DNA of 55,565 bases from Actinomycetes bacterium (GTDB lineage: Bacteria > Actinomycetota > Acidimicrobiia > Acidimicrobiales > Bog-793): contig JAJZBI010000026.1 of assembly GCA_021798985.1 (NCBI GenBank), positions 1 to 55,565 of the forward strand, given 5' to 3'. Position 1 is the first letter of the stretch. Every line of letters begins with the position of its first letter. Below the pieces are notes generated by a model. The model did not search any database, had not been told where the DNA came from, and saw nothing but the letters and a program-made list of their open reading frames with translations. The position numbers and the translations under genes are program-made. This document shows positions 1,693-39,797 of this stretch, piece by piece.

Positions 1693-1733
1693 AAATCAGC
1701 GTCGAGGCCAGTGCCAAGCAAGGAGGAGCGGCC

Positions 1734-3705: not shown

Positions 3706-3706
3706 G

Positions 3707-3764: not shown

Positions 3765-3789
3765 CAGCCGGTGAGCAAAGGAGGTGCCG

Positions 3790-6491: not shown

Positions 6492-6525
6492 GAGGTGGCG
6501 GCCGCGGCGCCCTCGCGGCGACATC

Positions 6526-6539
6526 TGTTAACGCTAACA
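6526..6539. promoter_or_regulatory. LacI-type operator before araA
   Basis: TGTTAACGCTAACA has perfect TGTTA/TAACA half-sites around a central CG, the classic shape of LacI/GalR-family operators. It lies 39 nt before the araA ATG and 35 nt after the regulator gene. The flanking composition is much more GC-rich, so the site stands out. Confidence 0.78.
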
Positions 6540-6577
6540 TGCAACGGCGCCGCCCGGCGCCAAGGAAGGTGAGCCCC

Positions 6578-7975: not shown

Positions 7976-7983
7976 GGGCGACG

Positions 7984-8676: not shown

Positions 8677-8721
8677 GCCGCCGTCGTGGCGAGCCGGCCG
8701 CGTGGTCTGACGAGCGCTCCC

Positions 8722-8754
8722 CGGCCCCGCCTGCCTGTCCGGGCGGCGGGGCCG
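8722..8754. terminator. Bidirectional terminator-like hairpin
   Basis: CGGCCCCGCC (8722-8731) pairs perfectly with GGCGGGGCCG (8745-8754) across a 13-nt loop. It lies in the 89-nt gap between the convergent araD and GNAT genes, where a terminator for both directions is expected. There is no T-tract, as is common in high-GC actinobacteria. Confidence 0.6.
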
Positions 8755-8765
8755 AGTTGCGCGGG

Positions 8766-10353: not shown

Positions 10354-10498
10354 GGGGGCTCCTCGCTCTCGTCTCGCCCGGCGGCGCACCGGGCTCCCCG
10401 GTGGCGCGCCGGGGTCGTGGGCGCGAGGATCCACCCGCCAGGGCCGGTCAGGGCAAGCGGGGCGCGCTACCGTCGCCACCGGGAGGTGGGAGGAGCAC

Positions 10499-11386
10499 AT
10501 GGCCATTGACGAGCGCCACGCCGAGGTCGCCCTCGCCGTGCAGGCGACCCTTGGGGAGGGCCCGGTCTGGGACGACCGCCGGAACGAGCTGTTCTTCGTC
10601 GACATCGTGGCGGGACGGGTGCACCGCTTTTGTCCCGAACGCGGCGAGCACGGCTCGTTCGCGGTCGGCCCGAGCGTCGGCGCGCTCGCCCTGCGCGAGG
10701 ACGGCGGGCTGGTGCTCGCCGCCCACGACGGCTTCTTTCTGGTGGAGGCGGACGGCACGGGGCTGGCGCCGCTGAGCGCGTTCCGCTCCGACGCCGAGCT
10801 CGTGCGCTTCAACGACGGCAAGGCCGACCCGCACGGGCGCTTCGTCGCCGGGACCATGGACTGGGACGGAGAGCGCCCGCTCGGCTCGCTCTACCTCCTC
10901 GAGCCCGGCGGGGCCGTCTCGGTGCTCCTCGAAGGCGTGACGATCTCGAACGGCCTCGCTTGGAGCGAGCGCGGCGACGTCGTCTACTACATCGACACCC
11001 CCCGGCGCAGCGTCGATGCCTTCGACTTCGACGCCGCCTCGGGCGCCTTCGCCAACCGCCGGGTGGTGGCGAGCTTCGAGGGGCCCGGCTCGCCCGACGG
11101 CATGACCATCGATGACGAGGGCTGCTTGTGGGTGGCGCTGTGGGGAGGATCTCGCGTCGAGCGCATCGACCCCCGCAGCGGCGAGCACCTCGCGGTCGTG
11201 CACGTCGCCGCCTCGCAGGTGACGAGCGCGGCCTTCGGCGGCCCCCGTCGCGACGTCTTGTACCTCACCACGGCACGCCGCGGCCTCGACGAGGCGAGCC
11301 TCGCCGGCCAACCGCACGCCGGAGACCTCTTCGCCGTCGAGGCCGGCGTGGCCGGCCCGGTGGCGCATCGCTTCGCCGCCTCCTAG
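10499..11386 (+). CDS. SMP-30/gluconolactonase-family sugar lactonase
   Basis: A 295-aa six-bladed beta-propeller lactonase. The start ATG 10499 follows GGGAGGTGGGAGGAG. The divalent-metal ligands of the family are seen: Glu in TLGEGPVWD, Asn in RFNDGKADPHGRF, Asn in ISNGLAWS, and Asp in GSPDGMTIDDEG. It probably hydrolyses an aldonolactone; the neighbouring arabinose genes make L-arabinolactone one possibility, but those genes form a phosphorylative route that needs no lactonase. A TACCGT box (10470-10475) is a candidate promoter. It is the first gene of a compact five-gene operon. Confidence 0.85.
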   Translation: MAIDERHAEVALAVQATLGEGPVWDDRRNELFFVDIVAGRVHRFCPERGEHGSFAVGPSVGALALREDGGLVLAAHDGFFLVEADGTGLAPLSAFRSDAELVRFNDGKADPHGRFVAGTMDWDGERPLGSLYLLEPGGAVSVLLEGVTISNGLAWSERGDVVYYIDTPRRSVDAFDFDAASGAFANRRVVASFEGPGSPDGMTIDDEGCLWVALWGGSRVERIDPRSGEHLAVVHVAASQVTSAAFGGPRRDVLYLTTARRGLDEASLAGQPHAGDLFAVEAGVAGPVAHRFAAS

Positions 11387-11395
11387 GGGGACTGC

Positions 11396-12055
11396 ATGGT
11401 CAAGGTCTTTCTCCTCGATGATCACGAGGTCGTGCGCGCCGGTCTGCGCCAGCTCCTCGCGGACGCAGCCGACGACATCGAGGTCGTGGGGGAGGCGGCC
11501 ACCGGTGAGGCGGCCGTGGCGGCGATCGAGTCGCTCGCGCCTGACGTCGCGGTGCTGGACGTCCGCCTCGAGGGCGGCCGAGGGATGGACGGGGTGGAGG
11601 TGTGTCGCCAGATCCGGGCGCGCCGGCCCGAGGTGGCGTGCTTGATGCTCACCTCCTTCTCTGACGACGAGGCGCTCTTGTCGGCGGTGATGGCCGGGGC
11701 CTCGGGCTTCCTGCTGAAAAACGCCAAGGGCGGCGAGCTCGCCGAGGCGATCCGCCAGCTCGCGGCGGGTGGGTCGCTGCTCGACCCGGGCCTCACCCGC
11801 CGCCTGCTCGACCGCATCCGCGAGGGCTCGGCGGGCGACCCGCTGCAGCGCCTCACCGACCAGGAGCGCCGCGTCCTCGACTTCCTCGCCGAGGGCAAGA
11901 CCAACCGCCAGATCGCGACCGAGCTGCACCTCGCCGAGAAGACCGTGAAGAACTACGTCTCGAGCGTGCTCGCCAAGCTCGGGATGCGCCGCCGGACCGA
12001 GGCGGCGGTGTTCGCGGCGCGCCTTGGCGCTCGCGAGGGCCAGCGACCAGGCTAG
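11396..12055 (+). CDS. NarL/FixJ response regulator, DevR/DosR-like
   Basis: A 219-aa two-domain regulator. The receiver has the acidic pocket DDH (8-10), phosphoacceptor Asp55 in VAVLDVRLEG, and the conserved Thr and Lys in MLTSFSD and LLKNAKG. The C-terminal LuxR-type HTH reads LTDQERRVLDFLAEGKTNRQ and LAEKTVKNYVSSVLAKLGM. This is strikingly like mycobacterial DevR/DosR, including the MVKVFLxDDHEVVR start and the RRTEAAVFAA tail. DevR controls hypoxia/NO dormancy genes. No histidine kinase gene is adjacent, so its partner must be elsewhere. It is 9 nt after the lactonase and 2 nt before the membrane-protein gene. Confidence 0.88.
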   Translation: MVKVFLLDDHEVVRAGLRQLLADAADDIEVVGEAATGEAAVAAIESLAPDVAVLDVRLEGGRGMDGVEVCRQIRARRPEVACLMLTSFSDDEALLSAVMAGASGFLLKNAKGGELAEAIRQLAAGGSLLDPGLTRRLLDRIREGSAGDPLQRLTDQERRVLDFLAEGKTNRQIATELHLAEKTVKNYVSSVLAKLGMRRRTEAAVFAARLGAREGQRPG

Positions 12056-12057
12056 GC

Positions 12058-13224
12058 GTGCGCGAGGTCGCCTTGGCGGCCGGCATCGTCGTGGTGCTGG
12101 CGAACTGGGCCAGCATGATCGCGACGATCGTCCTGCCGCGGGGCCGGACGAGGGCCCAGCGCCTCACGTGGTCGCTCACCTGGGCGGTGCACCGCGTGGC
12201 CGTGGCGGTCTCCCGCCTGTCGGCAGACTACGCGCGCCGCGACGCGCTGCTGGCGGCGGTGGCGCCCGCGGCGGTCGTCGTGCAGCTCGTCAGCTTTCTC
12301 GGCCTCTTCATCGTGGGCTACGCGCTGATGCTCCTGCCCTGGAGCCAACAGCTCGGCGCGGCCTTCGACCAGGCGGGCGCGGGGGCGGTGACCTTGGGCC
12401 TGGCGCGCGCCGCCGGGCACACCAACGACGCCATCGTCGTCCTCGCGGCGGCGAGCGGAGCGATCACCGTCGCCCTGCAGATCGGCTACCTGCCGGTGCT
12501 CTACCAGTCCTTCGCGCGGCGCGAGACGCTGGTCGCCTTGATGGAGAGCCGCGCCGGCGTTCCGGCCTGGGGCCCCGAGGTGCTGATCCGCCACCAGCTC
12601 GTGCACACGACCGACGCCCTCGGCGACTTCTACAAGGCCTGGGAGCTGTGGGCGGCCGACGTCGCCGAGAGCCACAGCACCCACCCGGTCCTCCTGCTCT
12701 TCCGCTCCCCGGTCGCCGGCTACAGCTGGCTGCTCTCGCTGCTCGCCGTGCTCGACGCGGCGGCGATCCAGCTCGCGGTGAACCCGGCGAGCGCGCCCTC
12801 CGAGGCCCGGCTCTGCCTGCGCATGGGCTTCTCGGCGCTGCGCCGCATCGCCCAGACGCTCAACATCGCCTACAACGACGACCCCCGCCCCGACGACCCG
12901 ATCGCCCTCAGCCCAGCCGAGTTCGCCGACGCCCTCGGCCAGCTCGAGCGGATCGGCTTCCCCCTCGAGCGGACCGCCGCCGAGGCGTGGCCGCACTTTG
13001 CGGGCTGGCGCGTGAACTACGAGCAGATCGCGTACCGCCTCGCCGACGCCATCGTCGCCCCGCAGGCGCCGTGGTCGGGCATGCGCCGGCACCTTCGTGT
13101 CGAGACGGTGCTGCCCCGGCGCCCGCCGCACCGCAGCCCGGACGGCGCCGTCGTCGCCGACGACGCGGCCCGCGCCGGGTCGTGGCCACCGCCGAGTTCG
13201 CGCGAGATCGCCTCGAAGGGCTAA
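12058..13224 (+). CDS. Conserved membrane protein, ion-channel-like
   Basis: A 388-aa protein starting at GTG 12058. Hydrophobic segments lie at about 4-24, 73-98 and 138-160, with the intervening TLGLARAAGHTNDA resembling a re-entrant pore loop, as in two-TM potassium-channel folds; the canonical TVGYG filter is absent. The C-terminal about 220 residues are soluble and predicted cytoplasmic (WELWAADVAESHSTHP; HFAGWRVNYEQIAYRLADAI). I recognise this as a conserved actinobacterial family but do not know a demonstrated function. It is translationally close to the DevR-like regulator upstream. Confidence 0.55.
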   Translation: MREVALAAGIVVVLANWASMIATIVLPRGRTRAQRLTWSLTWAVHRVAVAVSRLSADYARRDALLAAVAPAAVVVQLVSFLGLFIVGYALMLLPWSQQLGAAFDQAGAGAVTLGLARAAGHTNDAIVVLAAASGAITVALQIGYLPVLYQSFARRETLVALMESRAGVPAWGPEVLIRHQLVHTTDALGDFYKAWELWAADVAESHSTHPVLLLFRSPVAGYSWLLSLLAVLDAAAIQLAVNPASAPSEARLCLRMGFSALRRIAQTLNIAYNDDPRPDDPIALSPAEFADALGQLERIGFPLERTAAEAWPHFAGWRVNYEQIAYRLADAIVAPQAPWSGMRRHLRVETVLPRRPPHRSPDGAVVADDAARAGSWPPPSSREIASKG

Positions 13225-13249
13225 GGCGCTCAGTAGCCTTTGCGCCACG

Positions 13250-13978
13250 ATGACTGATTCCACTGCTCTCGCGCGCGTCCCCGAGCGCGTCCTCGTCGTC
13301 ACGGCACACCCCGATGACGTCGACTTCTCCTCGTCCGGCACCATCGCCACCTTGGTGGCGGCAGGCAGCGCCGTTACCTACTGCATCGTCACCGACGGCA
13401 CGGCCGGCGGCTTCGACCGCACGATCGAGCGCTCGGCGATGGCCGAGATCCGCCGCGCCGAGCAGCGTGCCGCCGCCGCGGTGGTCGGCGTCGGCGAGGT
13501 GCGCTTTTTAGGCGGCACCGACGGCGAGGTGGTGGCGGACCTCGCGCTGCGCCGCGCCATCTCTCGCCAGATCCGCGAGCTGCGTCCCGAGCTCGTCGTG
13601 ACCTCGAGCCCCGAGCGCAACTACGACCGGATGCCAGCCAGCCACCCCGACCACCGCGCGGTGGGGGAGGCGACGCTGTGCGCCGTCTACCCCGACGCCC
13701 GCAACCCCTTCGCCTTCCCCGAGCTCCTCGACGAGGGTCTCGAGCCCCACGTCGTCCATGAGGTGTGGCTGGCCGGCTACCCCGCTCCCGACCACGCCGT
13801 GGACATCACCGACGTCCTCGACAAGAAGCTGGCCGCCATCGGCGCGCACGCCAGCCAGCTGCCCGACCGCGACCAGGCCGAGCGCTTCGTGCGCGAATGG
13901 ACCGCGGCCGAGGCCGAGCGGGCGGGGCTCGGGCCGGGGCGGCACGCCGAGGCCTTCAAGATCGTGCGGATCGGCTAG
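13250..13978 (+). CDS. PIG-L/LmbE-family zinc deacetylase
   Basis: A 242-aa N-deacetylase of the LmbE fold. Zinc ligands and catalytic Asp are seen in VVTAHPDDVDF, the third ligand in ASHPDHRAVGEA. In actinobacteria this family includes MshB (mycothiol biosynthesis) and Mca, but the short length and missing C-terminal features favour an uncharacterised GlcNAc-type deacetylase. The start ATG 13250 has no Shine-Dalgarno, while TAGCCT lies about 11 nt upstream, so a very short leader or leaderless message is possible. Confidence 0.83.
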   Translation: MTDSTALARVPERVLVVTAHPDDVDFSSSGTIATLVAAGSAVTYCIVTDGTAGGFDRTIERSAMAEIRRAEQRAAAAVVGVGEVRFLGGTDGEVVADLALRRAISRQIRELRPELVVTSSPERNYDRMPASHPDHRAVGEATLCAVYPDARNPFAFPELLDEGLEPHVVHEVWLAGYPAPDHAVDITDVLDKKLAAIGAHASQLPDRDQAERFVREWTAAEAERAGLGPGRHAEAFKIVRIG

Positions 13979-13986
13979 GCGAAGGC

Positions 13987-14595
13987 GTGCACGGCGACGA
14001 GCTGCGCTTTGGCAGTGAGGTCTTCGTCACGCTCTTTGTGATCATGGACCCGCTCGGGACCGTGCCGATCTTCTTGTCGTTGACGGCGACGCGCAGCCAC
14101 GCCGCGCGACGCCGTCTCGCCTGGCAAGCCGTCGCCGTCGCGGGCGGGGTGATCGGCGCCTTTGCGGTCTTCGGCCAGCAGCTGCTCTCCTCGCTCGGCA
14201 TCAGCCTCCCGGCCCTGCAGGGATCCGGCGGGCTGCTCTTGTTGCTCGTCGCGCTCGAGCTGTTGACCGGCCGCAACGAGCAGCCGAGCGGGATGGACGA
14301 CGTGAACGTGGCCCTGGTCCCGCTCGGCACGCCGCTGATCGCCGGGCCCGGGGCGATCGTCGCCACGATCGTCTTCGTCCGCCAGGCCCATGGGGCGGCC
14401 GACGCCCTGGCGATCGTGGTGGCGATGGCCGCCGTGCTCGCCGTCCTCTACGTGGCGCTGAGGTTCTCGCTCGTGGTGTGGCGACTGTTGCGGCCGAGCG
14501 GGATCCAGCTGCTGACGCGGATCTTCGGCCTCCTGCTCTCGGCGATCGCCGTCCAGCTCGTCGCCGAGGCCGTGCGCGGCTTCGTCAAAGGCTGA
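13987..14595 (+). CDS. MarC-family (UPF0056) membrane protein
   Basis: A 202-aa integral membrane protein with about six helices. Family hallmarks are the opening LFVIMDPLGTVPIFLSLT and the second-half repeat VPLGTPLIAGPGAIVATIV. GTG 13987 is chosen as start, 8 nt after the deacetylase stop. The transported substrate of the MarC family is not established. The 3' end overlaps the convergent DUF1707 gene by 11 nt. Confidence 0.85.
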   Translation: MHGDELRFGSEVFVTLFVIMDPLGTVPIFLSLTATRSHAARRRLAWQAVAVAGGVIGAFAVFGQQLLSSLGISLPALQGSGGLLLLLVALELLTGRNEQPSGMDDVNVALVPLGTPLIAGPGAIVATIVFVRQAHGAADALAIVVAMAAVLAVLYVALRFSLVVWRLLRPSGIQLLTRIFGLLLSAIAVQLVAEAVRGFVKG

Positions 14596-28960: not shown

Positions 28961-30229
28961 CTAGGTCGCCTCGGCCAGCTCCGGCATGCCCGCCGGGCTC
29001 CCCACGGGCAACCAGCGGGCGAGGCGCTCGGCGGAGAACAACTCGTCGGTGATCATCGCTGCCGCGCCGCGCAGGCCCGCCTCGTCACCGAGCGGGGAGA
29101 GCGCGATCTGCAGGTGCCGCGTGGCAAGGGGCAGCGACCGGCGGTAGACGCTCTCGCGCACCGCGGCGAGCAGCACGTCGCCCGCCGTCGCGACGCCGCC
29201 GCCGATCAGCACGAGGCGGGGGTTGTAGAAGTTGACGATGGTCGCCAGCACTTCGCCGACGAGGCGTCCCGTACGGACCAAGAGCGCGAGCGCCACCGGG
29301 TCGCCGTGCTGGGCTGCCTTGGATATGTCCTCCCCGGTGACGTCGTCTCCTCGATTGAGCACGGCGGCGAGGTAGGCACTCTCGCCGGACTGGGCGGCGA
29401 CGGTGCCGTCGCGGGCGAGTGCGGCGCCGCCGGCCAAGGCCTCGAGGCAGCCGTGGTTGCCGCAGCGGCAGACGATGTCGGACTCTGCCTCGACGGCCAC
29501 GTGACCGACGTCACCGGCGCAGCCCTGGGCACCGCGGTAGAGGCGGCCGCCGCAGATGATGCCCGCACCGATCCCGGTGCCGATCTTGAGGTAGACGACG
29601 TGGTCTTCGCCTCGCGCGAGGCCGCTACGCAGTTCGCCGAGCGCCATCAAGTTGACGTCGTTGTCGATGAACACGGGGGCGGAAAAGCGCGCGGCGAGCA
29701 GGTCGCGCAGCGGATACGCGTGCCAGCCCGGCATGATCGGTGGGGACACGGAGCGGCCGGTCGAGAACTCGACTGGGCCCGGCACGCCGACGCCGACGCC
29801 CCACGGGGCGCGCTGTGGGCCGCTCGCCTGGAGGAGCGAGTCGAACAGCTGGGCGAGCCGGCCGAGCTCGGCCTCCGGCCCCTTGGCGATGTCGAAGCGC
29901 TCTTCGTGGTGGGCGAGGAGCCGGCCCGTGAGATCGGTCACCCCGGCGGACAGACTTGTGGCACCGAGCTCAGCGACGAGCAGGACGCCAGCGTCAGCAC
30001 GGAACTCGATCGAGCGCGGAGCCCGCCCGCCCGTCGAGGGCGCGAGCGCGCCTTCACCGATGAGCCCAGCGACTTGCAGCCGCTCCAGCTGCTGAGAGAT
30101 GACGGCCCGGCCGAGACCGCTCCGGCGCGCCAGCTCTGGGCGCGTCCGGGCGGCCCCGGCGCGCACGAGATCGAGCACGGTCACCAGGTTCTCGACGTCT
30201 CCGCCCTCTGCGCCGTCGAGCAGGTCCAT
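28961..30229 (-). CDS. ROK-family transcriptional repressor
   Basis: A 422-aa NagC/XylR-type repressor. An N-terminal winged HTH (RPELARRSGLGRAVISQQLERL, about 29-50) is fused to an actin-like ROK domain with GIGAGIICGGRLYRGAQGCAG, the zinc cluster CRCGNHGC and LVLIGGGV. ROK repressors bind free sugars as inducers. The gene is divergent from the sugar operon at 30384-38181, with nested inverted repeats between them, so it very likely controls that operon and itself. ATG 30229 is preceded by GGAGG. Confidence 0.9.
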   Translation of the reverse strand: MDLLDGAEGGDVENLVTVLDLVRAGAARTRPELARRSGLGRAVISQQLERLQVAGLIGEGALAPSTGGRAPRSIEFRADAGVLLVAELGATSLSAGVTDLTGRLLAHHEERFDIAKGPEAELGRLAQLFDSLLQASGPQRAPWGVGVGVPGPVEFSTGRSVSPPIMPGWHAYPLRDLLAARFSAPVFIDNDVNLMALGELRSGLARGEDHVVYLKIGTGIGAGIICGGRLYRGAQGCAGDVGHVAVEAESDIVCRCGNHGCLEALAGGAALARDGTVAAQSGESAYLAAVLNRGDDVTGEDISKAAQHGDPVALALLVRTGRLVGEVLATIVNFYNPRLVLIGGGVATAGDVLLAAVRESVYRRSLPLATRHLQIALSPLGDEAGLRGAAAMITDELFSAERLARWLPVGSPAGMPELAEAT

Positions 30230-30265
30230 CGTGCCACTGCCTCCTCGTCGTCTTCAGTCTGACGA

Positions 30266-30304
30266 TCAACAACTTCTGTCGTCAACGATTGACTTTTGTT
30301 GATT
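30266..30304. promoter_or_regulatory. Candidate ROK operator: nested inverted repeats
   Basis: The outer arms ATCAACAA (30266-30273) and TTGTTGAT (30297-30304) are perfect inverted repeats. Inside lies a second perfect palindrome, GTCAA-CGA-TTGAC (30282-30294). This A/T-rich block stands out in a GC-rich window and sits in the divergent promoter region of the ROK repressor and its operon. ROK operators are typically long, A/T-armed palindromes, so repressor binding is likely. Confidence 0.75.
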
Positions 30305-30318
30305 ACAAGCATAAGGTC
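30290..30318 (+). promoter_or_regulatory. Candidate promoter of the seven-gene sugar operon
   Basis: TTGACT (30290-30295) and TAAGGT (30313-30318) are separated by 17 nt, a sigma-70-like arrangement pointing towards the operon. The -35 box is part of the inner palindrome, so repressor binding would occlude RNA polymerase. On the opposite strand the overlapping TTGACG could serve the repressor gene. Confidence 0.55.
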
Positions 30319-30383
30319 GGGAACGCGCGGCGGATCGAGCCTAGGGCTCGGTCGGATTGGACGAGTCGCGCCGGGAGGCAGCG

Positions 30384-31463
30384 GTGACGGTCTCGCTTCG
30401 GAGCGCCGTCGTGGGCGCAGGGTTCATCGGCACCGTGCACGCCCGCGCCATCCGGGCGGCCGGTGGCGAGGTCAGCGTGGTCGCCGACCCCGATGCGCGA
30501 CGCGCCCGTGCCCTCGCAGCAGCTGCCGGGGGGAGCCGGCGCTCAGCCAGCCCCGAAGCGGCGATCGCGGCCGGAGACGTCGACATCGTGCACATCTGCA
30601 CCCCCAATGCCAGCCATGCGCCGCTCGTTGAAGCGGCGCTCGCCGCCGGAAAGCACGTGGTCTGCGAGAAGCCGCTGGCAACGAGCTCCGCCGCCGCGGC
30701 GCGCCTCGAACAGCTCGCGAGCAAGGCGGGAGTGGCTGCCGCGGTGCCCTTCGTCTACCGCTTCTACCCGATGGTCCGAGAGGCACGGGCGCGCGTGCTG
30801 GCGGGGGAGGCGGGCCGTCTCAGCGTGATTCATGGCTCATACCTGCAGGACTGGCTGGCGCGCCCACAAGACAGTGACTGGCGGGTGGACGCCGCGCTCG
30901 GCGGCAGGTCACGCGCCTTCGCCGACATCGGTGTCCACTGGGTCGACCTCGTCGAGTTCGTGAGCGGCCAGCGCATCACGCGCCTGTGTGCGCAGCTGCT
31001 CACAGCCTTCTCCTCTCGGGCGGGCGATGCTCTGGTGCACACCGAGGATGCCGCAACGCTGCAGTTCGCCACCGACGGCGGCGCCATCGGATCGCTCGTG
31101 CTCAGTCAGGTTGCCAACGGGCGTAAGAACCGGCTGCTCCTTTCCCTTGACGGCTCGGAGTCGAGCGTCGTCTTCGATCACGAGCAGCCCGACGTCCTCT
31201 GGCTCGGAGGCCGCGAGCGCTCCGTCACGATCGCTCGTGCCCCCGAGCAGCTCAGCCCTCAGGCGCGACGCTACGTGCAGCTCCCTGCCGGACACCCTCA
31301 GGGCTACCAGGACTGCTTCAACGCCTTCATGGCGGACTATCACGCGACGATCGACGGCGCCGACGTCGAGGGACTGCCCGGGTTCTCCGACGGGCGGCGA
31401 GCGGCGGAGATCACCGAGGCCGTGCTTGCCTCAGCGGCGCGCGGCGAGTGGGTGGAGCTGTGA
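30384..31463 (+). CDS. Gfo/Idh/MocA-family sugar dehydrogenase (1 of 3)
   Basis: A 359-aa NAD(P)-dependent oxidoreductase. GTG 30384 is the likely start because GGGAGG lies 5 nt before it; TTG 30357 lacks a ribosome binding site. The Rossmann motif is VVGAGFIGTVHARAI, the catalytic Lys is in VVCEKPLATS, and the substrate-site segment is HGSYLQDWLARPQDSDW followed by ADIGVHWVDL with its catalytic Asp/His. The QDW type is common among sugar dehydrogenases acting on C1 or C3 of hexose-like substrates. It is the first gene of a seven-gene operon and overlaps the permease gene by 4 nt. Confidence 0.86.
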   Translation: MTVSLRSAVVGAGFIGTVHARAIRAAGGEVSVVADPDARRARALAAAAGGSRRSASPEAAIAAGDVDIVHICTPNASHAPLVEAALAAGKHVVCEKPLATSSAAAARLEQLASKAGVAAAVPFVYRFYPMVREARARVLAGEAGRLSVIHGSYLQDWLARPQDSDWRVDAALGGRSRAFADIGVHWVDLVEFVSGQRITRLCAQLLTAFSSRAGDALVHTEDAATLQFATDGGAIGSLVLSQVANGRKNRLLLSLDGSESSVVFDHEQPDVLWLGGRERSVTIARAPEQLSPQARRYVQLPAGHPQGYQDCFNAFMADYHATIDGADVEGLPGFSDGRRAAEITEAVLASAARGEWVEL

Positions 31464-32473
31464 GCGGGGCGCCAGCGACCGTGCCACTCACCGAGCGCCC
31501 TTCACCCGCAGGTGAGGGCCGGAGACGACTCGGGGCGGCGGCGCGGGGCCGCCTATGGGCGTACGGCATCTGGGCCGTGCTCGCGCTCCTCGTCCTCGTC
31601 CTGGTGGCCGTCTCGCCGAGCTTTCGGACGAGCACGAACCTCACGAACATCCTCGAGCAGAACTCGATGCTTGGGATCGTCGCTCTCGGGATGCTCGTGA
31701 TGATGGTGAGCGGGGGCTTCGACCTCTCGGTCGGCGCCGTCGGCGCGACCTCGGCGGTGGTCGGCGCCTATCTCTCTGCTCACGGTGGGCTGTGGGCGGC
31801 GATCCCCGGCGCCCTCGCAGTGGGATTGCTCGTCGGTCTGGCGAACGGCCTGTTGATCGCTCGCGCTCGGATCAACGCCTTCGTCACCACCTTCGCCATG
31901 GCGAGCGTCGTGACCGGGATCATGTTCGTCGCGACCTCAGCCTCCCCGATCAATGCCAATGCCGGATGGCTGGTCACCTTGGCGCTCGACCGGATCGGCG
32001 GGATCCCCTATGCCTTCATCGCCTACGTCCTTGTCGCGCTGCTCACCGGCTTCGCCCTCTCGCGCACCAAGTGGGGCCACTACGTCTACGCGGTCGGCGG
32101 CAACCGCGAGGCGAGCTTCCTCTCGGGCGTCCCCGTCGTGCCGACCCAGCTCGCTGCCTTCATCTACGGCGGACTTTGCGCCGCGATCGGCGGCTTGATC
32201 CTGCTTGGCCAGAGCGATATCGGCCAGCCCTCCTCGGCGACCGACTGGCCGCTGACAGCGATCGCCATCTGCGTGATCGGTGGCGTCTCGTTGATGGGAG
32301 GCGAGGGGCGGCTGCACGGCACGATCGCCGCCACCTTCGTGCTCGGGGTGATCTCGAACGGCCTCAACCTCTTGAACGTCTCGCCGTACATCCAGCCGAC
32401 GGTCACGGGCGCGGTGATCTTGATCGCCGTGGCGCTCGACCGCGTCAGCCGGCGCCGGCAGGCCGCGGGATAG
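31460..32473 (+). CDS. Sugar ABC transporter permease, CUT2 (RbsC type)
   Basis: A 337-aa permease with a polar N-terminus of about 33 residues and about eight or more helices. Family motifs are NILEQNSMLGIVALGMLVMM, GGFDLSVGAVGATSA and the C-terminal VIGGVSLMGGEGRLHGTI. GTG 31460 overlaps the dehydrogenase stop (GTGA); GTG 31448 is an alternative. CUT2 systems use one permease gene as a homodimer, consistent with only one here. CUT2 importers carry monosaccharides, cyclitols or autoinducer-like sugars. Confidence 0.88.
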   Translation: MSGAPATVPLTERPSPAGEGRRRLGAAARGRLWAYGIWAVLALLVLVLVAVSPSFRTSTNLTNILEQNSMLGIVALGMLVMMVSGGFDLSVGAVGATSAVVGAYLSAHGGLWAAIPGALAVGLLVGLANGLLIARARINAFVTTFAMASVVTGIMFVATSASPINANAGWLVTLALDRIGGIPYAFIAYVLVALLTGFALSRTKWGHYVYAVGGNREASFLSGVPVVPTQLAAFIYGGLCAAIGGLILLGQSDIGQPSSATDWPLTAIAICVIGGVSLMGGEGRLHGTIAATFVLGVISNGLNLLNVSPYIQPTVTGAVILIAVALDRVSRRRQAAG

Positions 32474-32504
32474 CGGGATGGCCGCGCGCTCGCCGACACG
32501 AGCT

Positions 32505-32548
32505 CCGGCACCTGGTGCCGGTTCATCTGCCCCGGCACCGGCCGGGGC
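32505..32548 (+). terminator. Two consecutive intercistronic hairpins
   Basis: CCGGCAC/GTGCCGG (32505-32511 and 32515-32521) is followed by GCCCCGGC/GCCGGGGC (32529-32536 and 32541-32548, loop ACCG). Both lie in the 96-nt gap between permease and binding-protein genes. No T-tract follows. As with the arabinose operon, they may stabilise the binding-protein part of the message. Confidence 0.55.
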
Positions 32549-32569
32549 CCGTCAAAAGGGGGAATCCCC

Positions 32570-33613
32570 ATGCCAAGAACCAGGCGGCCGCGGATAGCCA
32601 GGCGCCTCCTCCTCGCCGGCTTCGCCGGCACTCTCGTCGCCGGGCTCGCGCTGAGCTCACCGTCGTCTGCCACGAGTGCCACGGCGCACAACGGCTCGGC
32701 CAAGCACTTCGTCCTCGGCTCGGTCGATGACGACATGACCAACCCGTTCCTCGCCGTCCTCGCCCAAGGCGAGCAGCAGCAGGCGGCCAAGCTCGGCATG
32801 TCGATCAAGGTGCTGTCGGGGAACGCCAACGGCACGATCTCGATGTCCCAGCAGATCGCCGCCGTCCAGCAGTTCATCACCCAACACGTCGACGCGATCT
32901 TGATGACCGCGTCGGACTCCAAGGGCATCATCCCCATCGTCAAGCAGGCCAACAAGGCTGGCATCCCGGTGATCGCCGTCAACACGCCGGTCGGCACCGT
33001 GACCGGTCCGCACAGCGTCAACACCGGCGGCGCGAAGGTTGTGACCTTCGTCGGCGCGGACAACACCGCGTACGGCGTCGCCGAAGGCAAGCTCGTCGTG
33101 CAGGCCTTGAAGGGCAAGGGCAACGTGGCGATGATCCACGGCACGCTAGGGACTGAGCCGGACACGCTGCGCTTCGCCGGCATGAAGTCGGTCTTTGCCA
33201 AGTACCCCGGGATCCACGTGGTGACGACGCTGTCGGACAACTGGCAGAACAGCCAGAACATCACCGCGGTGCAGGACCTGATGTCGAAGTATCACGGCAC
33301 CCAGCTCAATGCGGTCGTGGCGACGGGTCCCGAGATGTACGCGGGTGCGCAGTACGCCCGCAGCCACGGCAACACGACCTGGAAGTTCATCGCCGGGGAC
33401 TACTCAAAGGAAGTCCGTAAGGCGATCCAGTCCGGAGCGCTCTATGGGACCGTCGATCAGGATCCGGCCGAGCAGGGTCGCCTCGGCGTGCAGTACGCCT
33501 ATGACTGGCTGACGGGCCACAAGTCCGCGGTTCCGCGGCCGATCAGCTACACGACGCTGCCGCTCATCACGGCGAAGAACGTCAACAGCGTCGTGGCGAC
33601 CTGGAGCTCGTAG
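32570..33613 (+). CDS. Sugar-binding protein of the CUT2 importer
   Basis: A 347-aa periplasmic-binding-protein-like (RbsB type) receptor. A basic start (PRTRRPRIARR) and hydrophobic core (about 12-33) form a Sec signal peptide; there is no lipobox Cys. The mature fold shows LGSVDDDMTNPFLAVLAQGEQQ, the hinge VDAILMTASDSKGIIPIV, VNTPVGTV and the C-terminal GTVDQDPAEQGRLG. AAAAGGGGGAAT precedes the ATG. The ligand is unknown; it is predicted to be the substrate of the three linked dehydrogenases. Confidence 0.87.
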   Translation: MPRTRRPRIARRLLLAGFAGTLVAGLALSSPSSATSATAHNGSAKHFVLGSVDDDMTNPFLAVLAQGEQQQAAKLGMSIKVLSGNANGTISMSQQIAAVQQFITQHVDAILMTASDSKGIIPIVKQANKAGIPVIAVNTPVGTVTGPHSVNTGGAKVVTFVGADNTAYGVAEGKLVVQALKGKGNVAMIHGTLGTEPDTLRFAGMKSVFAKYPGIHVVTTLSDNWQNSQNITAVQDLMSKYHGTQLNAVVATGPEMYAGAQYARSHGNTTWKFIAGDYSKEVRKAIQSGALYGTVDQDPAEQGRLGVQYAYDWLTGHKSAVPRPISYTTLPLITAKNVNSVVATWSS

Positions 33614-33649
33614 TTGCGCGCTCGACGAGCTGCGCGGCGGGAGGTGCCG

Positions 33650-35275
33650 GTGCGGCCGCCATCTCCCGCCGGCGGCGCGCCGGCAGACGGCACCTCGCCT
33701 TCGCGCGCGACGCCGCGGCTCTCGTTGCATCACGTCGCGAAGTCGTTCGGTGCGGTGCAGGTGCTGCACGGCATCGAGCTCGAGATCCAGCCCGGCGAGA
33801 TCCACGGGCTCGTCGGTCAGAACGGCGCCGGCAAGAGCACGCTGGCCCGGATTCTCGCCGGCGGCTATCCCGACCATGGGGGGAGCGTGGAGATCGACGG
33901 CGCCGAGGCACGGCTCTCCTCGCCGCGCGAGGCGCGAAGAGCGGGCGTCGCCGTGATCTACCAGGAGTTCAGCCTCGTTCCGCAGCTGAGCGTCGCCGAG
34001 AACATCCTCCTTGGAGAAGAACCGCGCGGTGCTCGCTACGACAGGGCCCGCGTGCTCGCCGAGGCCGAGCATCGTCTTTCGGAGATCGGGATGGCCGACG
34101 ACCTCTCCCTCGGGTCGATCGTCTCGACGCTGAGCGCCGCGGCCCAGCAGCGTGTCGAGATCGCGAAGGCGCTCACCCGCAAGGCGAAGGTGGTGGTGCT
34201 CGACGAGCCGACGGCGCGCCTCGCCGGGCCCGAGCGCGAGCAGCTCTTCGCACTGATGCGCCGGGTCGCTGGCCTGGGAGCCGGGCTCGTGTTCATCTCT
34301 CACGTCCTCGATGAGGTGATGGCGGTGACCTCGCAGGTCACCGTCCTGCGCGACGGCCAGGTCGTCGCGAGCGGGCCGACGTCGGGCTTCGACGTCGCTT
34401 CACTCGCTGCCGCGCTCGTCGGGCGGAGCCTCGGCGAAGAGGCGGCCGCCGGCACCGCGAAAGAGCTCGCCGGGGCGGCGCCATTGCTGCGGGCTCGCGC
34501 CCTGAGCGGGGGCCGCCAGGTACGCGACGTGTCGATCGAGGTACGTCCGGGCGAGATCCTCGGGATGGCTGGCCTGGTCGGCTCCGGTCGTTCGACCGTT
34601 GCCCGAATGCTCGTCGGCGCCCTCCAGCCGAGCGCCGGGACGATCGAGATCAACGGCGAGGCTGTGCGCCTTTCTGACCCGCGCCACGCACTGCGCCACA
34701 AGGTGGCGCTCGTTCCCGAAGACCGCCGCACCCAGGGGCTCGTGAGCACCGCTTCGTCGGCGGACAACCTGCTCTTGATGTCACTCGCCGCCAGTCGATC
34801 CCGTCTCGGTCTCGTCCATCCCGGCGCCTTGCGACGGCGGGCTCGCCAGGCGGTCGCCGACTTCGACGTCCGCCCCGCTGATGATCGCCGACAGGTCGCC
34901 ACGCTGTCCGGCGGCAATCAACAAAAGGTGCTCTTCGCCCGCGCCGCGCTCGCCCGCCCGGACGTCCTCATCGTCGATCAGCCGACCGCCGGCGTCGATG
35001 TCGGTACGAAGGCTGAGATCCACCAGCTCCTCCGCGACCTGGCGGGGGAGGGCAAAGGGGTGCTCGTCATCTCCGATGACGTGGACGAGCTCGTCGGCCT
35101 CGCCCATCGGATCGTCGTGATGCGTCGCGGCCGACTCGTCGCCGAGCCCGCCTTGCCGATCGCCGCCCAGCGCCTTGTCGAGCTGATGGTGACTGGGAAT
35201 GGCGAAGCGCGGGTCGAAAGCGCCGCGTCCGCACCGGAACCGGCGGCCGAAGTCCTCGAGAGGAGACCACGATGA
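33650..35275 (+). CDS. Sugar ABC transporter ATPase with two nucleotide-binding domains (RbsA type)
   Basis: A 541-aa protein with tandem ATPase domains. The first has Walker A GQNGAGKST, the degenerate signature LSAAAQQRVEIAKAL and Walker B VVVLDEPTARL. The second has the family-typical degenerate Walker A GLVGSGRST, the signature LSGGNQQKVLFARAAL and Walker B VLIVDQPTAGVD. GTG 33650 is preferred since GGGAGG lies 6 nt upstream; TTG 33614 and GTG 33644 are possible. The end overlaps the isomerase gene as ATGA. Confidence 0.88.
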   Translation: MRPPSPAGGAPADGTSPSRATPRLSLHHVAKSFGAVQVLHGIELEIQPGEIHGLVGQNGAGKSTLARILAGGYPDHGGSVEIDGAEARLSSPREARRAGVAVIYQEFSLVPQLSVAENILLGEEPRGARYDRARVLAEAEHRLSEIGMADDLSLGSIVSTLSAAAQQRVEIAKALTRKAKVVVLDEPTARLAGPEREQLFALMRRVAGLGAGLVFISHVLDEVMAVTSQVTVLRDGQVVASGPTSGFDVASLAAALVGRSLGEEAAAGTAKELAGAAPLLRARALSGGRQVRDVSIEVRPGEILGMAGLVGSGRSTVARMLVGALQPSAGTIEINGEAVRLSDPRHALRHKVALVPEDRRTQGLVSTASSADNLLLMSLAASRSRLGLVHPGALRRRARQAVADFDVRPADDRRQVATLSGGNQQKVLFARAALARPDVLIVDQPTAGVDVGTKAEIHQLLRDLAGEGKGVLVISDDVDELVGLAHRIVVMRRGRLVAEPALPIAAQRLVELMVTGNGEARVESAASAPEPAAEVLERRPR

Positions 35276-36216
35276 AGCTCGGACTGCTCACGGCCTGCTT
35301 GCCGAATCTGAAGCTGGCCGACGTCGCGCAATTCGCTGCATCACTCGGCATTGAGGCACTCGAGGTCGCCGCCTGGCCCGCCACGGGCGATCGCCCCTTC
35401 ACCGCGAGCCACCTCGACGTCGAGCGCCTGAGCCCGGGTCGCTCCGACGACCTCGTCGGGGAACTCGCGACGCTCGGTCTCAGCGTCTCGGCGCTCGCCT
35501 ACTACGACAACAACCTCGCACCAGACCTCGAGGAGCGCCGGCGGATCCACGAGCACCTCCACGCCTGCATCGACGCGGCCGCATTGATGGGCTGCGGGAT
35601 CGTCGGGACTTTCGTCGGACGGGATCCTGCCAAGTCCGTCGCCGAGAACCTGCGCGAGGCGAAGCGCGAGTTCGCCCCCCTCGTGTCACACGCGAACGAC
35701 GCGGGCGTGCGCCTCGCGATCGAGAACTGCGTCATGGAGGGCTGGCACCCCGACGGCTATCCCGGCAATCTCGCCTACTCCCCCGAGCTGTGGGAGTGGA
35801 TGTTCTCCCTCGGGCTGTACCTCAACTTCGATCCGTCCCACCTGTGCTGGATGGGGATCGACCCGGCCGAGGCCGTGCGCCCCTATGTGGACCAGGTGAT
35901 CCATGCCCAGGCCAAGGACATCGAGCTGTTTCCCGAGCGGCGTAACCGCTATGGCTATCCCGGGCGCGCCGTGCAGCGCCCCGACCCTTGGGACACCGGC
36001 TGGTGGCGTTATCGCATCCCCGGTCTCGGCCAGGTGGACTGGCGGCGGGTCCTCGACGTGCTCTACGAGGGCGGCTTCGAGGGCACGGTGTCGATCGAGC
36101 ACGAGGACCCCGTCTGGGGCGGGACGACGGAGAGGGTCCAGGCCGGCGTCGCGATGGCGACGCGGACCTTGCGCTCGGTCATGGCGCCGGTCGCCACGTG
36201 GCGACCACATGGCTGA
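35272..36216 (+). CDS. AP-endonuclease-2-fold sugar isomerase/lyase (IolE/LgdB-like)
   Basis: A 314-aa TIM-barrel protein of the xylose-isomerase-like superfamily. Candidate metal ligands are Glu in LAIENCVMEGWH, Asp and His in LNFDPSHLCWMGID, His in QVIHAQAKDIEL and Glu in VSIEHEDPVWGG. The opening KLGLLTACLPNLKLADVAQFA is typical of the subgroup found beside Gfo/Idh/MocA dehydrogenases. Relatives isomerise ketosugars, dehydrate keto-inositol or beta-eliminate 3-keto-glycosides (as LgdB does for 3-keto-levoglucosan). Which of these applies cannot be decided from sequence. It is coupled to the genes on both sides by overlaps. Confidence 0.82.
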   Translation: MKLGLLTACLPNLKLADVAQFAASLGIEALEVAAWPATGDRPFTASHLDVERLSPGRSDDLVGELATLGLSVSALAYYDNNLAPDLEERRRIHEHLHACIDAAALMGCGIVGTFVGRDPAKSVAENLREAKREFAPLVSHANDAGVRLAIENCVMEGWHPDGYPGNLAYSPELWEWMFSLGLYLNFDPSHLCWMGIDPAEAVRPYVDQVIHAQAKDIELFPERRNRYGYPGRAVQRPDPWDTGWWRYRIPGLGQVDWRRVLDVLYEGGFEGTVSIEHEDPVWGGTTERVQAGVAMATRTLRSVMAPVATWRPHG

Positions 36217-37210
36217 GCGCCCGCTGCGCGTCGGGGTGCTCGGCGGAGGCACGATGGCGGCGTTGCACCTCGCCACGCTCCTCGAAGCGCCCGGGGTGCG
36301 GGTCGTCGGCCTGGCGGCGCCCGAGATCGACCGCTCGCTGGCGAAGATCATGGCGACGCGCGAGATCGAGGAGATGGCGACCGAGGCGCTCCTGGCACCT
36401 GGCGCGCTCGATGCGGTGGTGATCGCCACCCCGACCGATCGCCACAGCGAGCTCGCCTCGCTGGCGGTCCTGGCTGGCGCGGCGGTGTTCTGCGAGAAGC
36501 CGGTGACGCGCACCCTCGCCGAGGCCGAGCACTTGGCGGCGCTCGCCGCGCGATTTCGGGCAAAGGTTGCGGTCGGCCATGTCCTGCGCTACTTCCCCGA
36601 GTACGAGGCGGCGCGTCGCCAGGTCGCGACCGGCCGGATCGGAACGGTCGGGATCTGCCGCCTGCTGCGGGCCAATACCAGCCCGGTCGCACGCCGGCCG
36701 TGGTACGGCGAGCGCGCCCGCAGCGGGGGAGTGCTGCTCGATCTCGCCATCCACGACCTCGACTGGTGCCGTTGGGCGCTCGGGCCGATCCGGCGCGTCT
36801 TCGCCCGCGCGAGCGGACCCGAAGAGCAGCGAGTCGTGGCCGTACTGGCGCGTCACACCTCGGGGGCGATCTCCTACCTGGACGCAAGCTGGCGCGCCGG
36901 GCACTTTGACAGTCGCCTCGAGGTCTGCGGGACCGAGGGCATCTATTGCGCCGAGCACTCTGGAGACGCGGGGTTCTGCTTGGTCCCAGTGCACGCCGAG
37001 GCTGCCTCCTACCTGCCCAGCGAAGCTGATGGCTCAGCGGGCGTCGATGACCCTTATCGCCGCGAGCTCACCGAGGCGCTGGCCTGGTTCGCGGGCGGCC
37101 CGGCGCCTCGCGCCGTGCTCGAGGATGGGATCGAGGCGCTGCGCCTCGCACTCGCTGCCGAGGAGAGCATCGCATTCGGCCAGCCCGTCGAGCTGGAGGA
37201 CCCGCGATGA
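36209..37210 (+). CDS. Gfo/Idh/MocA-family dehydrogenase (2 of 3)
   Basis: A 333-aa oxidoreductase overlapping the isomerase gene by 8 nt. Rossmann motif VGVLGGGTMAALHLATLL, catalytic Lys in VFCEKPVTRTL, and the catalytic region GGVLLDLAIHDLDWCRWALG with an Asp-x3-His-Asp arrangement typical of inositol-2-dehydrogenase-like members. The sequence is clearly different from the first and third copies, so these are not recent duplicates; each probably performs a separate redox step. The stop overlaps the next gene (ATGA). Confidence 0.85.
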   Translation: MAERPLRVGVLGGGTMAALHLATLLEAPGVRVVGLAAPEIDRSLAKIMATREIEEMATEALLAPGALDAVVIATPTDRHSELASLAVLAGAAVFCEKPVTRTLAEAEHLAALAARFRAKVAVGHVLRYFPEYEAARRQVATGRIGTVGICRLLRANTSPVARRPWYGERARSGGVLLDLAIHDLDWCRWALGPIRRVFARASGPEEQRVVAVLARHTSGAISYLDASWRAGHFDSRLEVCGTEGIYCAEHSGDAGFCLVPVHAEAASYLPSEADGSAGVDDPYRRELTEALAWFAGGPAPRAVLEDGIEALRLALAAEESIAFGQPVELEDPR

Positions 37211-38181
37211 TGCGCGTCGGCCTCCTTGGTTGTGCACACGTGCACGCCGCCCACTACGTCGCTGCGTTGCGCGCCGGCGACATTGGGGCGCGCGCCGTCG
37301 CCCTGTATGACCCTGACTCGGAGCAGGCGGCAGCCTTTGCCGCCGCGCACGGCCTCGAGCGGGCAACTGACGCCGCCTCGCTGTGCGGCGCCGTCGACGC
37401 CGTCATCGTCGTGAGCGAGCACTCCCGCTACGTGGAGATGGTGCAGAGCGCGGCCCGGGCCGGGCTGCCCGTCCTTTGCGAGAAGCCCTTCGGCGCGAGC
37501 CTCGGTGACCTGCGCACCCTGCTCGCCACCGATGTCTGGTGCTCGGTCGCCTTCCCGATGCGCTATGCGCCACCGCTCGTGCGGGCCAAGGCGATGATCG
37601 AGCAGGGGGGCCTCGGCGAGCTCGTCGCGATGAGCGGCACCAACCGCGGCAGCTACCCGGGTGGCTTCTTCGGTGACCGGGCACGATCCGGGGGAGGCGC
37701 ACTGATCGACCACGTCGTCCACGTGGCGGACGCGCTCTACGTACTGAGCGGCCTCGAATACGAGACCGTCTACGCCGAAGCGGGGCGATTCCGCAATGTG
37801 GGCGACGTCGAAGACGTCGCGCAGGTGCTGGCGACGACGACCAGCGGTGCCTTTGCGAGTATCGACTCGAGCTGGTCGCGCCCCGCGGCGATGCCCGGCG
37901 GTCTCGACTTCCAGATGACGTTGTGGTTTGAGCGCGCCACGCTGCACCTCGACGGGATGGCGCGGCGCGGGCTCGTCGTCGCGGCCGACGGCAGCATCGA
38001 CTACGAGGAGTACGGGCGGGGGGTGAACGAGGCGATGCTTTCGGCCTGGGTTCGTGCGATCGAGAGCGGCGCCGCGCCGCCGATCCCTGCGCTTGACGGG
38101 GCGAGAGCCACCGAGCTCGCCCTTGGCGCGCTGCGCTCGGCCGAGACGGGCAGGGTGGTCGACCTCGCGGCGCTGCGCTGA
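37207..38181 (+). CDS. Gfo/Idh/MocA-family dehydrogenase (3 of 3)
   Basis: A 324-aa oxidoreductase closing the operon. The N-terminal nucleotide motif is atypical (VGLLGCAHVHAAHYVAAL, with Cys-Ala-His where Gly-x-Gly is usual), a variant seen in some Gfo family members. The catalytic Lys is in VLCEKPFGASL and the substrate site is GGGALIDHVVHVADALYVLSG. In 3-keto-sugar pathways one such enzyme oxidises the substrate and another reduces the released 3-keto sugar; this copy could take the second role (inference). Confidence 0.83.
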   Translation: MMRVGLLGCAHVHAAHYVAALRAGDIGARAVALYDPDSEQAAAFAAAHGLERATDAASLCGAVDAVIVVSEHSRYVEMVQSAARAGLPVLCEKPFGASLGDLRTLLATDVWCSVAFPMRYAPPLVRAKAMIEQGGLGELVAMSGTNRGSYPGGFFGDRARSGGGALIDHVVHVADALYVLSGLEYETVYAEAGRFRNVGDVEDVAQVLATTTSGAFASIDSSWSRPAAMPGGLDFQMTLWFERATLHLDGMARRGLVVAADGSIDYEEYGRGVNEAMLSAWVRAIESGAAPPIPALDGARATELALGALRSAETGRVVDLAALR

Positions 38182-38271: not shown

Positions 38272-39183
38272 ATGACCAGCACTTCTGAGGCGAGCGGGGC
38301 AGCGGCAGGTGAGCGGGGCACCGTGCGAGTCAAGCGCGGCCTTGCCGAGATGCTGCGCGGCGGCGTCATCATGGACGTTGTCACCGCCGAGCAGGCCAAG
38401 ATTGCCGAAGATGCCGGCGCGGTCTCCGTGATGGCGCTCGAGCGCGTGCCCGCCGACATCCGCCGCGAGGGCGGTGTGGCGCGCATGAGCGATCCCGCCC
38501 TGATCAGCGCCATTCAGGAGGCGGTCACCATCCCGGTGATGGCCAAGGTGCGGATCGGGCATTTCGCCGAGGCCCAGATCCTCCAGGTCCTCGAGGTCGA
38601 CTACATCGACGAGAGCGAGGTCCTCACGCCCGCCGACGAGGCGCACCACATCGACAAGTGGGCGTTCTCGGTGCCCTTCGTCTGCGGCGCCACCAACCTC
38701 GGCGAGGCCCTCCGGCGCATCTCGGAGGGTGCGGCGATGATCCGCTCCAAGGGCGAGGCGGGGACCGGCAACGTCGTGGAGGCGGTGCGCCACCTGCGCT
38801 CCATCCTCGGTGACATCAAGAAGATCCAGACCGCGGATGCCGCCGAGCGCTATGGCTGGGCGAAGCAGCTGCAAGCGCCGATCGATCTCGTCGAGGAGGT
38901 GGCCCGCACCGGCCGCCTGCCCGTCCCGCTGTTCTGCGCCGGCGGCATCGCCACGCCCGCCGACGCGGCGCTCGTGATGCAGCTCGGCGCCGAAGCGGTC
39001 TTCGTCGGATCGGGCATCTTCAAGAGCGAGGACCCATCCCGGCGCGCCCGGGCGATCGTCGAGGCGACGGCGCACTACCAAGATGCCGAGATCGTCGCCA
39101 AGGTCTCCCGGGGCCTCGGTGCGGCGATGCCCGGCGAGGAGATCGCGACCTTGGACGTCAAGCTCGCTGAACGCGGCTGGTGA
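38272..39183 (+). CDS. pdxS: Pyridoxal 5'-phosphate synthase, synthase subunit
   Basis: A 303-aa TIM-barrel subunit that makes PLP from ribose 5-phosphate, glyceraldehyde 3-phosphate and ammonia. Highly conserved segments are [27 protein letters not shown], the first catalytic Lys in [12 protein letters not shown], the second in [17 protein letters not shown], and [14 protein letters not shown]. The length matches the family. Ammonia comes from PdxT, encoded by the next gene with a GTGA overlap. Confidence 0.97.
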
Positions 39184-39797
39184 CGGCCTCGCCACTCGTC
39201 GGTGTCCTTGCCCTGCAGGGCGACGTCGCCGAGCACAGCGCGGTGCTGGACGCCCTTGGAGCCACGGTGCGCGCCGTGCGCCGCCCGGAGCACCTCGAGG
39301 GCCTGCAGGGGCTCGTCCTGCCCGGCGGCGAATCAACGACACTGTCGCTGCTGCTCGAGTCCTCCGGGCTCTTCGAGCCGCTCGGCGAGCGCCTGGCAGC
39401 GGGGCTGCCGGTGCTCGGCACCTGTGCCGGGATGATCTTGTTGTCGCGCCAGGTGCTCAACGGCCGACCGGACCAAAAGAGCTTTGGCGCCATCGACATC
39501 GTCACGCGGCGCAACGCCTTCGGACGACAGGTCGAGTCCTTTGAGTCGACGCTCGAGGTGACCGGCCTTTCCGAGCCGATGCACGCGGTCTTCATCCGCG
39601 CCCCGTTCGTCGAGTCGGTGGGCGAGGGCGTTGAGGTGCTGGCGGCAGTGCGTCGCAGTGATGGCTCGCCCCGGCCGGTCGTCTGCCGTCAGGACAACGT
39701 GCTCGTCGCCGCCTTCCATCCCGAGCTGTCGGGCGACGATCGCCTGCACCGCTTGCTGCTCGCGCGTGCCGGAGGGCGATCCGCCTCAGCGGCGTGA
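39180..39797 (+). CDS. pdxT: Pyridoxal 5'-phosphate synthase, glutaminase subunit
   Basis: A 205-aa class I glutamine amidotransferase that feeds ammonia to PdxS. The start pattern [33 protein letters not shown], nucleophile Cys in [12 protein letters not shown], and the His-x-Glu pair in [13 protein letters not shown] are all present. The GTG start overlaps the pdxS stop by 4 nt, ensuring coupled translation of the two subunits. Confidence 0.96.

Follow-up and report, generated by a model that had tools for sequence, protein, structure and literature searches.

The cleavage of glycosides and anhydrosugars without hydrolysis has so far been worked out for few substrates. Levoglucosan, a sugar of burnt cellulose, is processed in Bacillus smithii and Paenarthrobacter by the series LgdA-LgdB1-LgdB2/B3-LgdC (PMC7676230, PMC10066097), and O-glucosides in Agrobacterium tumefaciens by GlycDH-AtOGE-AtHYD-Gfo (PMC10628242); a C-glucoside pathway, that of PUE (DgpA-DgpBC), has the same four-step logic. 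Here, we compare these systems with an operon and its divergent regulator located at positions 28961-38181 of contig JAJZBI010000026.1 (assembly GCA_021798985.1), from an Actinomycetes bacterium of the lineage Bog-793. The whole stretch analysed, 55,565 nucleotides long, is called the window. The operon probably serves to take up a sugar derivative and to obtain glucose from it through oxidation, hydration and re-reduction rather than through hydrolysis. Stated more fully, it would be induced by its substrate, a small sugar derivative brought in from outside, and would release glucose or a related hexose from this non-hydrolytically, an interpretation that in our judgement stands slightly above an even chance of being correct. 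Eight genes are present, and their Pfam families agree with those that an earlier analysis of the window (the original prediction) had named for this place:

28961..30229, minus strand: divergent ROK-family repressor (weak N-terminal MarR-like helix-turn-helix, HTH, MarR_2; ROK domain, PF00480, 200.9 bits; 49-61% identity to the ROK proteins beside GFO1-TIM in other actinobacteria)
30289..30315, plus strand: putative promoter/operator element TTGACTTTTGTTGATTACAAGCATAAG (pattern match to the related locus L051; shuffled sequences)
30384..31463, plus strand: GFO1, Gfo/Idh/MocA dehydrogenase, proposed 3-keto-glucose reductase in the role of LgdC (Pfam, orthology, fold)
31448..32473, plus strand: CUT2 ATP-binding cassette (ABC) permease (BPD_transp_2, PF02653), start possibly the GTG at 31460
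32570..33613, plus strand: CUT2 sugar-binding protein, RbsB-like (Peripla_BP_4, PF13407; best PDB match 2ioy, 111.6 bits)
33614..35275, plus strand: CUT2 double ATPase (ABC_tran, PF00005, twice), true start uncertain
35272..36216, plus strand: TIM, metal enzyme of the AP_endonuc_2 fold, proposed 2-hydroxy-3-keto-glucal hydratase, possibly also eliminase (model, fold match)
36209..37210, plus strand: GFO2, proposed as front-end dehydrogenase, the first partner in a conserved Gfo/Idh/MocA pair (Pfam, pair conservation)
37207..38181, plus strand: GFO3, second of the pair, from a family that mostly has an unusual AH[VL]H motif in the nucleotide-binding loop (Pfam, pair conservation)

In the proposed route, ROK would keep the divergent promoter repressed as long as no sugar ligand is present, and the CUT2 importer would bring the substrate in. 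GFO2 and GFO3, as a heteromer or as two coupled dehydrogenases, would then oxidise a secondary hydroxyl, most likely at C3, with NAD(P)+. TIM, as a metal-dependent lyase/hydratase, would remove the C1 substituent if needed and hydrate the 2-hydroxy-3-keto-glycal to a 3-keto-hexose, which GFO1 would reduce to the free hexose, to be phosphorylated by a kinase encoded elsewhere. A glucokinase elsewhere in the genome is plausible from the gene content, where there are kinase-type ROK proteins without the HTH-length extension. The scheme is redox-balanced, one NAD(P)H being made and one used, if both enzymes share a cofactor. The pathway class is fairly secure, and two of the four enzymes, GFO1 and TIM, can be placed well. 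We infer from the sequences, with homology and gene context supporting the order and the chemistry, each catalytic step, their order, the C3 position, glucose as the product and a dual function of TIM; the role of GFO2 and GFO3 and the class of the substrate are likewise predicted.

The GFO1-TIM cassette, its regulator and its likely activities

In a genome-neighbourhood search, both the GFO1-TIM and the GFO2-GFO3 pairs recurred in other genomes and, as each is conserved elsewhere, their arrangement in the window is more than chance. TIM was searched for in 396 genomes of the phylum and, more widely, in 84,980 species, which yielded 80 loci. In most loci of the 396-genome scan, GFO1 homologs lie directly 5′ of TIM; in the window, the transporter genes sit between the two. 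The nearest actinobacterial loci encode GFO1 proteins with 49-58% identity and, where complete, a ROK gene on the opposite strand (41-61%). GFO1 and TIM are thus a conserved actinobacterial cassette.

Close relatives of GFO1, TIM and ROK are also present in operons bearing LgdA (57-58% identity for GFO1, 64-67% for TIM and 49-55% for ROK). Genuine LgdA was defined by a score above the NCBI NF052479 cut-off of 650 bits, as observed for L051 (an Actinomycetes metagenome-assembled genome, 716.5 bits), L055 (Arachnia propionica, 731.2 bits) and L131 (an Arthrobacter agilis plasmid, 746.8 bits), whose LgdA proteins are approximately 70% identical to that of a further levoglucosan locus, L140. These three loci also contain an LgdB1-like TIM barrel; relatives of both GFO1 and TIM are found in L051 and L055, and a GFO1 relative in L131. 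As LgdA and LgdB1 take the oxidation and the elimination, GFO1 and TIM would be left with the reduction and the hydration, that is, the LgdC and LgdB2/B3 slots (PMC7676230, PMC10066097), and GFO1 may be proposed as a 3-keto-glucose reductase on these analogies. Since L131 and L140 have a 333-residue TIM barrel instead, and L140 another reductase, the hydratase and reductase slots can be filled by different families. As a side observation, plasmid P2 of Deinococcus gobiensis (L209, 4529-12714) carries a levoglucosan operon (LgdA, LgdB1, importer) with two further GFO1-related Gfo genes.

This slot assignment is guilt by association, but it is repeated in other contexts. For instance, a GFO1 relative lies beside a GMC oxidase and a CarBC-like pair (DUF6379 plus a xylose-isomerase-like protein) in Novosphingobium L133, and beside a GMC oxidase and DUF1080 in Xanthomonas L135; as these genes can oxidise and cleave, the GFO1 relative (47-50% identity) would again be left with the reduction. 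L133 (N. resinovorum pSA2, 423-12152), which also encodes a TonB receptor and a hydratase-like TIM barrel and adjoins a gallate dioxygenase gene, is a probable C- or O-glycoside pathway. Within an 11-member clade (98% support) that contains TIM and members from levoglucosan operons, the first-step partners are LgdA with LgdB1 (L051, L055), LgdB1 with a short-chain dehydrogenase/reductase (SDR; L050, L054), a zinc dehydrogenase (L053) or, in the window, GFO2-GFO3, and the front end is not visible in L038 and some short contigs. GFO1 homologs (49-51%) also overlap a second Gfo gene on the Mycobacterium intracellulare plasmids L132 and L136, and in L136 neighbouring P450 and methyltransferase genes suggest that the setting is perhaps one of biosynthesis rather than catabolism.

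The regulatory region provides a further link. The element TTGACTTTTGTTGATTACAAGCATAAG is composed of a -35-like TTGACT, a TTGT-N5-ACAA motif and a -10-like CATAAG, and looks like a -35/-10 pair with the TTGT-N5-ACAA as putative operator between them. Within the window there is a single match to the pattern TTGACTTTTGTN5ACAAGCATAAG, and of 210 loci only L051 contains it, in its ROK intergenic region; the 27-bp frames of the two differ at the centre only. From shuffled sequences, 0 matches are expected for the 27-bp pattern, even with 3 mismatches. Looser forms containing TTGACTT are found at the equivalent place in L050, L053, L054, L055 and L038. A repeat, ATCAACAA/TTGTTGAT, was considered as a second promoter and discarded, as it is not conserved in relatives.

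The modelled structures point in the same direction. The TIM model, built from 57 sequences (predicted local distance difference test, pLDDT, 93.7), best matches 2zds, which is SCO6571 of Streptomyces coelicolor (Z 32.7; ~25% identity), a protein with no assigned function, known reaction or matching operon. The second match, and the best with an assigned function, is 8ro4, the 2-hydroxy-3-keto-glucal hydratase AtHYD (Z 31.4, root-mean-square deviation 2.2, 278 aligned residues, 23% identity), ahead of Art22 (Z 29.5) and the ketose 3-epimerases (Z 27). E151, D187, H190, H211, K215 and E276 are invariant in the 57 TIM-family sequences, and TIM retains the AtHYD-type fold with its acidic/His active site (DPSH and E/D/K/E positions conserved). 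Although a shared fold proves no function, the hydratase slot had been predicted from gene context before the fold was computed, and we propose TIM as a predicted 2-hydroxy-3-keto-glucal hydratase, perhaps also an eliminase. The nearest fold of the GFO1 model (pLDDT 84.2) is levoglucosan dehydrogenase (Z 44.0), in a tie with scyllo-inositol/L-glucose dehydrogenase (Z 43.1).

Taken as a whole, the locus shares with the levoglucosan pathway CUT2-type import, a Gfo oxidase and reductase, AP_endonuc_2 enzymes, ROK control, the orthologous reductase and hydratase slots of L055 and L051 and the promoter element of L051, but lacks LgdA and LgdB1, has another binding protein and contains the extra GFO2-GFO3 pair. 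With the two glucoside pathways it shares the four-step logic and the resemblance of TIM to AtHYD, and distant TIM relatives occur in the DgpA/DgpB-like operons L036, L080 and L111; it differs from them in the first dehydrogenase and in having no OGE, CarBC/DgpBC or DUF6379. No Pfam match to the DUF6379 small subunit with its xylose-isomerase-like large subunit was found among the eight proteins. The dgp-like operon L036, from an Enterococcus raffinosus megaplasmid in human faeces (6326-11865), consists of Gfo, TIM barrel, DUF6379, Gfo, a relative of the window TIM and a ROK kinase. The original prediction is thus borne out in part. The levoglucosan-type logic that it had offered as a parallel is supported by the close relatives of GFO1 and TIM in operons with LgdA and LgdB1 and by the AtHYD-like fold. 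Its suggestion that the whole might be an undescribed system is not supported, as the back half, together with its regulator and promoter element, is that of a pathway type already known.

The GFO2-GFO3 pair

GFO2 and GFO3 homologs are adjacent, in the same order and with a 4-nt overlap, on plasmid records of Deinococcus (L149, L151) and haloarchaea (L146-L148, L152); these loci were chosen because both genes matched and do not constitute an unbiased count. An unselected sample is provided by a scan of the 396 genomes with a GFO3 profile, in which all strong GFO3 loci whose flanks are complete have GFO2 immediately 5′ (G192, G318, G432, G317, G414, G256 and G466, and the second copy in the genome of the window); a further locus is truncated by the end of its contig. 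The exact 4-nt overlap is present in the window and 12 other loci, and the pair is distributed over Actinobacteria, Deinococcus and haloarchaea. Counter-examples come from other scans: the neighbour of GFO3 in L206 is another Gfo-type protein, and no GFO2 was found in L150.

The two proteins form separate clades (support 98 and 100), and their distance matrices agree (Mantel r 0.90, permutation p 0.0003), an agreement to which the kinship of the loci alone could contribute. In most of the GFO3 family, an AH[VL]H motif stands at the position expected for the glycine-rich NAD loop. In L159 (G256:C150, 167-3303), a gene for a TIM barrel comes directly after the pair, the protein being 80% identical to that of the levoglucosan locus L140; the contig ends there. 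The genome from which the window comes has a second such pair (L142, G000:C26:38001-55000, 6030-14430; 40% and 38% identity), which lies with a ROK gene of its own, genes for a CUT1 permease and binding protein and one for an M81/MlrC metallopeptidase.

On these sequence comparisons, the simplest reading would make GFO2-GFO3 one dehydrogenase module, perhaps a heteromer, set before the hydratase. Consequently, the three independent dehydrogenase activities considered earlier were replaced by a pair plus one, and the third activity that had been left unexplained is better assigned to this conserved, co-evolving gene pair. The crystal entry 8w9s, of RifT with its NADH-dehydrogenase partner chain, offers a precedent in that it holds two different Gfo/Idh/MocA chains; its chain A is the best PDB sequence match of GFO2. 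RifT belongs to antibiotic biosynthesis, however, and GFO3 matches it weakly (E 2e-4), similarity being otherwise generic to the superfamily, and a reading of GFO2 and GFO3 as RifS/RifT orthologs was therefore rejected. A heteromeric Gfo/Idh/MocA pair was sought in the literature and nothing relevant was found, a weak negative because slashed names are unsearchable.

A wider proposal may be made tentatively, and we hold it to be possible rather than likely. GFO2-GFO3 would be an undescribed two-subunit (heteromeric) Gfo/Idh/MocA sugar oxidase, conserved in Actinobacteria, Deinococcus and haloarchaea and able to be added ahead of a common hydratase-reductase back end, and the ROK-GFO1-TIM cassette would thus serve many substrates by swapping the transporter and the oxidase (LgdA, zinc dehydrogenase, SDR, GMC oxidase or GFO2-GFO3).

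Importer, gene layout and neighbouring genes

The binding protein of the operon is 23% identical (over 155 residues) to that of the levoglucosan operon L055, whereas those of L055 and L131 share 71%. As it is unrelated to this conserved type, the imported compound is probably not levoglucosan, a substrate that is also disfavoured by the missing LgdA: no match to LgdA at E 1e-150 was found in the genome, the best match to true LgdA being GFO1 itself (33%), and GFO1, GFO2 and GFO3 score 151.9, 54.6 and 36.6 bits against NF052479, all below its cut-off. Likewise, no LgdB1 was found in the operon, where TIM is the sole AP_endonuc_2 protein and belongs to another clade; the best matches to LgdB1 in the genome (~32%) lie on other contigs. 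Inferring the substrate from the RbsB-like nature of the binding protein gave no assignment. Its best plasmid match (42.5%, Agrobacterium pAt) lies beside a ROK gene and an importer without assigned substrate, and no match at E 1e-60 was found in the 396 genomes of the phylum.

Overlaps are found at four of the six junctions of the seven-gene plus-strand unit: GFO1-permease (4 or 16 nt, according to which start is used), ATPase-TIM (4), TIM-GFO2 (8) and GFO2-GFO3 (4). A gap of 96 bp separates the permease from the binding protein, and the latter abuts the ATPase. For GFO1, the most likely start is the GTG at 30384, with GGAGG just 5′, and for GFO2 the ATG at 36209. As GFO1, GFO2 and GFO3 are only ~29-34% identical to one another over their aligned parts, they are not recent duplicates, in agreement with the original prediction; by inspection, all three keep the EKP lysine motif and a D-x3-H motif. 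The vitamin B6 synthesis genes pdxS and pdxT (38272-39797) lie on the same strand, 90 bp 3′ of the operon; no terminator was found between the operon and pdxS, and read-through into pdxS-pdxT is possible.

Competing explanations and implications

Several observations weigh against the route proposed here. TIM has Gln213 where AtHYD and ~60% of its relatives have a metal-liganding His, although this Gln is common to its whole close clade, including the orthologs from levoglucosan operons, the position being mostly His elsewhere. The operon contains no LgdB1-type eliminase, so TIM would have to be bifunctional, or elimination unneeded; LgdB2 is known to perform both elimination and hydration (PMC7676230). 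The family is not uniform, as its more distant GFO1-TIM loci are accompanied by DeoC-like aldolases. Furthermore, L038 is limited to ROK, GFO1, TIM and a CUT2 importer, which means that GFO1 may act as an oxidase too, and GFO2-GFO3 are found elsewhere beside CUT1 importers, with no TIM. These last two observations also favour an explanation, in our view rather unlikely, in which GFO1 and TIM alone oxidise, eliminate, hydrate and re-reduce, GFO1 recycling its NAD, while GFO2-GFO3 would catalyse another reaction, such as epimerising or oxidising the freed sugar. The structural proximity of GFO1 to LgdA would fit, as would the occurrence of the pair with ROK and CUT1 importers but without GFO1 or TIM in Deinococcus L149 and L151 and in L142, which makes it an independent unit. 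However, GFO1 coexists with LgdA in complete levoglucosan operons, which points to a division of labour, and L159 directly links GFO2-GFO3 to a hydratase-type TIM.

Inositol or cyclitol catabolism, with GFO1-3 as cyclitol dehydrogenases and TIM as an inosose dehydratase or isomerase, seems improbable to us. All three dehydrogenases match the iolG model, TIM matches iolE weakly and GFO1 folds like scyllo-inositol dehydrogenase (the tie given above), but the iolG scores are 93-155 bits against a cut-off of 355 and the iolE score 29.6 against 290, IolB, IolC, IolD and IolJ are absent from the operon, and the nearest operons carry LgdA and LgdB1 and no iol genes. Standard inositol or ribose catabolism, against which the original prediction had already argued, was rejected on the basis of these curated cut-offs and the gene content. 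We give equally little credence, if not slightly less, to a levoglucosan operon in which GFO2-GFO3 have replaced LgdA and LgdB1 with the substrate unchanged: the orthologous GFO1, TIM and ROK and the common promoter element would suit it, but the binding protein and the lack of LgdA anywhere in the genome speak against it. Separately, distant GFO1-TIM pairs in Chloroflexi and other groups (L094, L096, L100, L108, L115, L118, L124 and others), found with a DeoC/LacD-type aldolase and often with ROK-type kinases and CUT2 importers, probably represent another, uncharacterised route.

On the preferred interpretation, non-hydrolytic release of a hexose, the operon would probably be a modular version of a pathway of known type, in which the transporter and the first dehydrogenase were exchanged, the latter for an old travelling pair. 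The data suggest that the last two steps of such pathways are a reusable cassette with exchangeable entry modules, so that the front end may offer a route to substrate prediction. In addition, the data single out GFO2-GFO3, for which annotation otherwise goes no further than “oxidoreductase”, as a specific unit, open to testing, in both bacteria and archaea.

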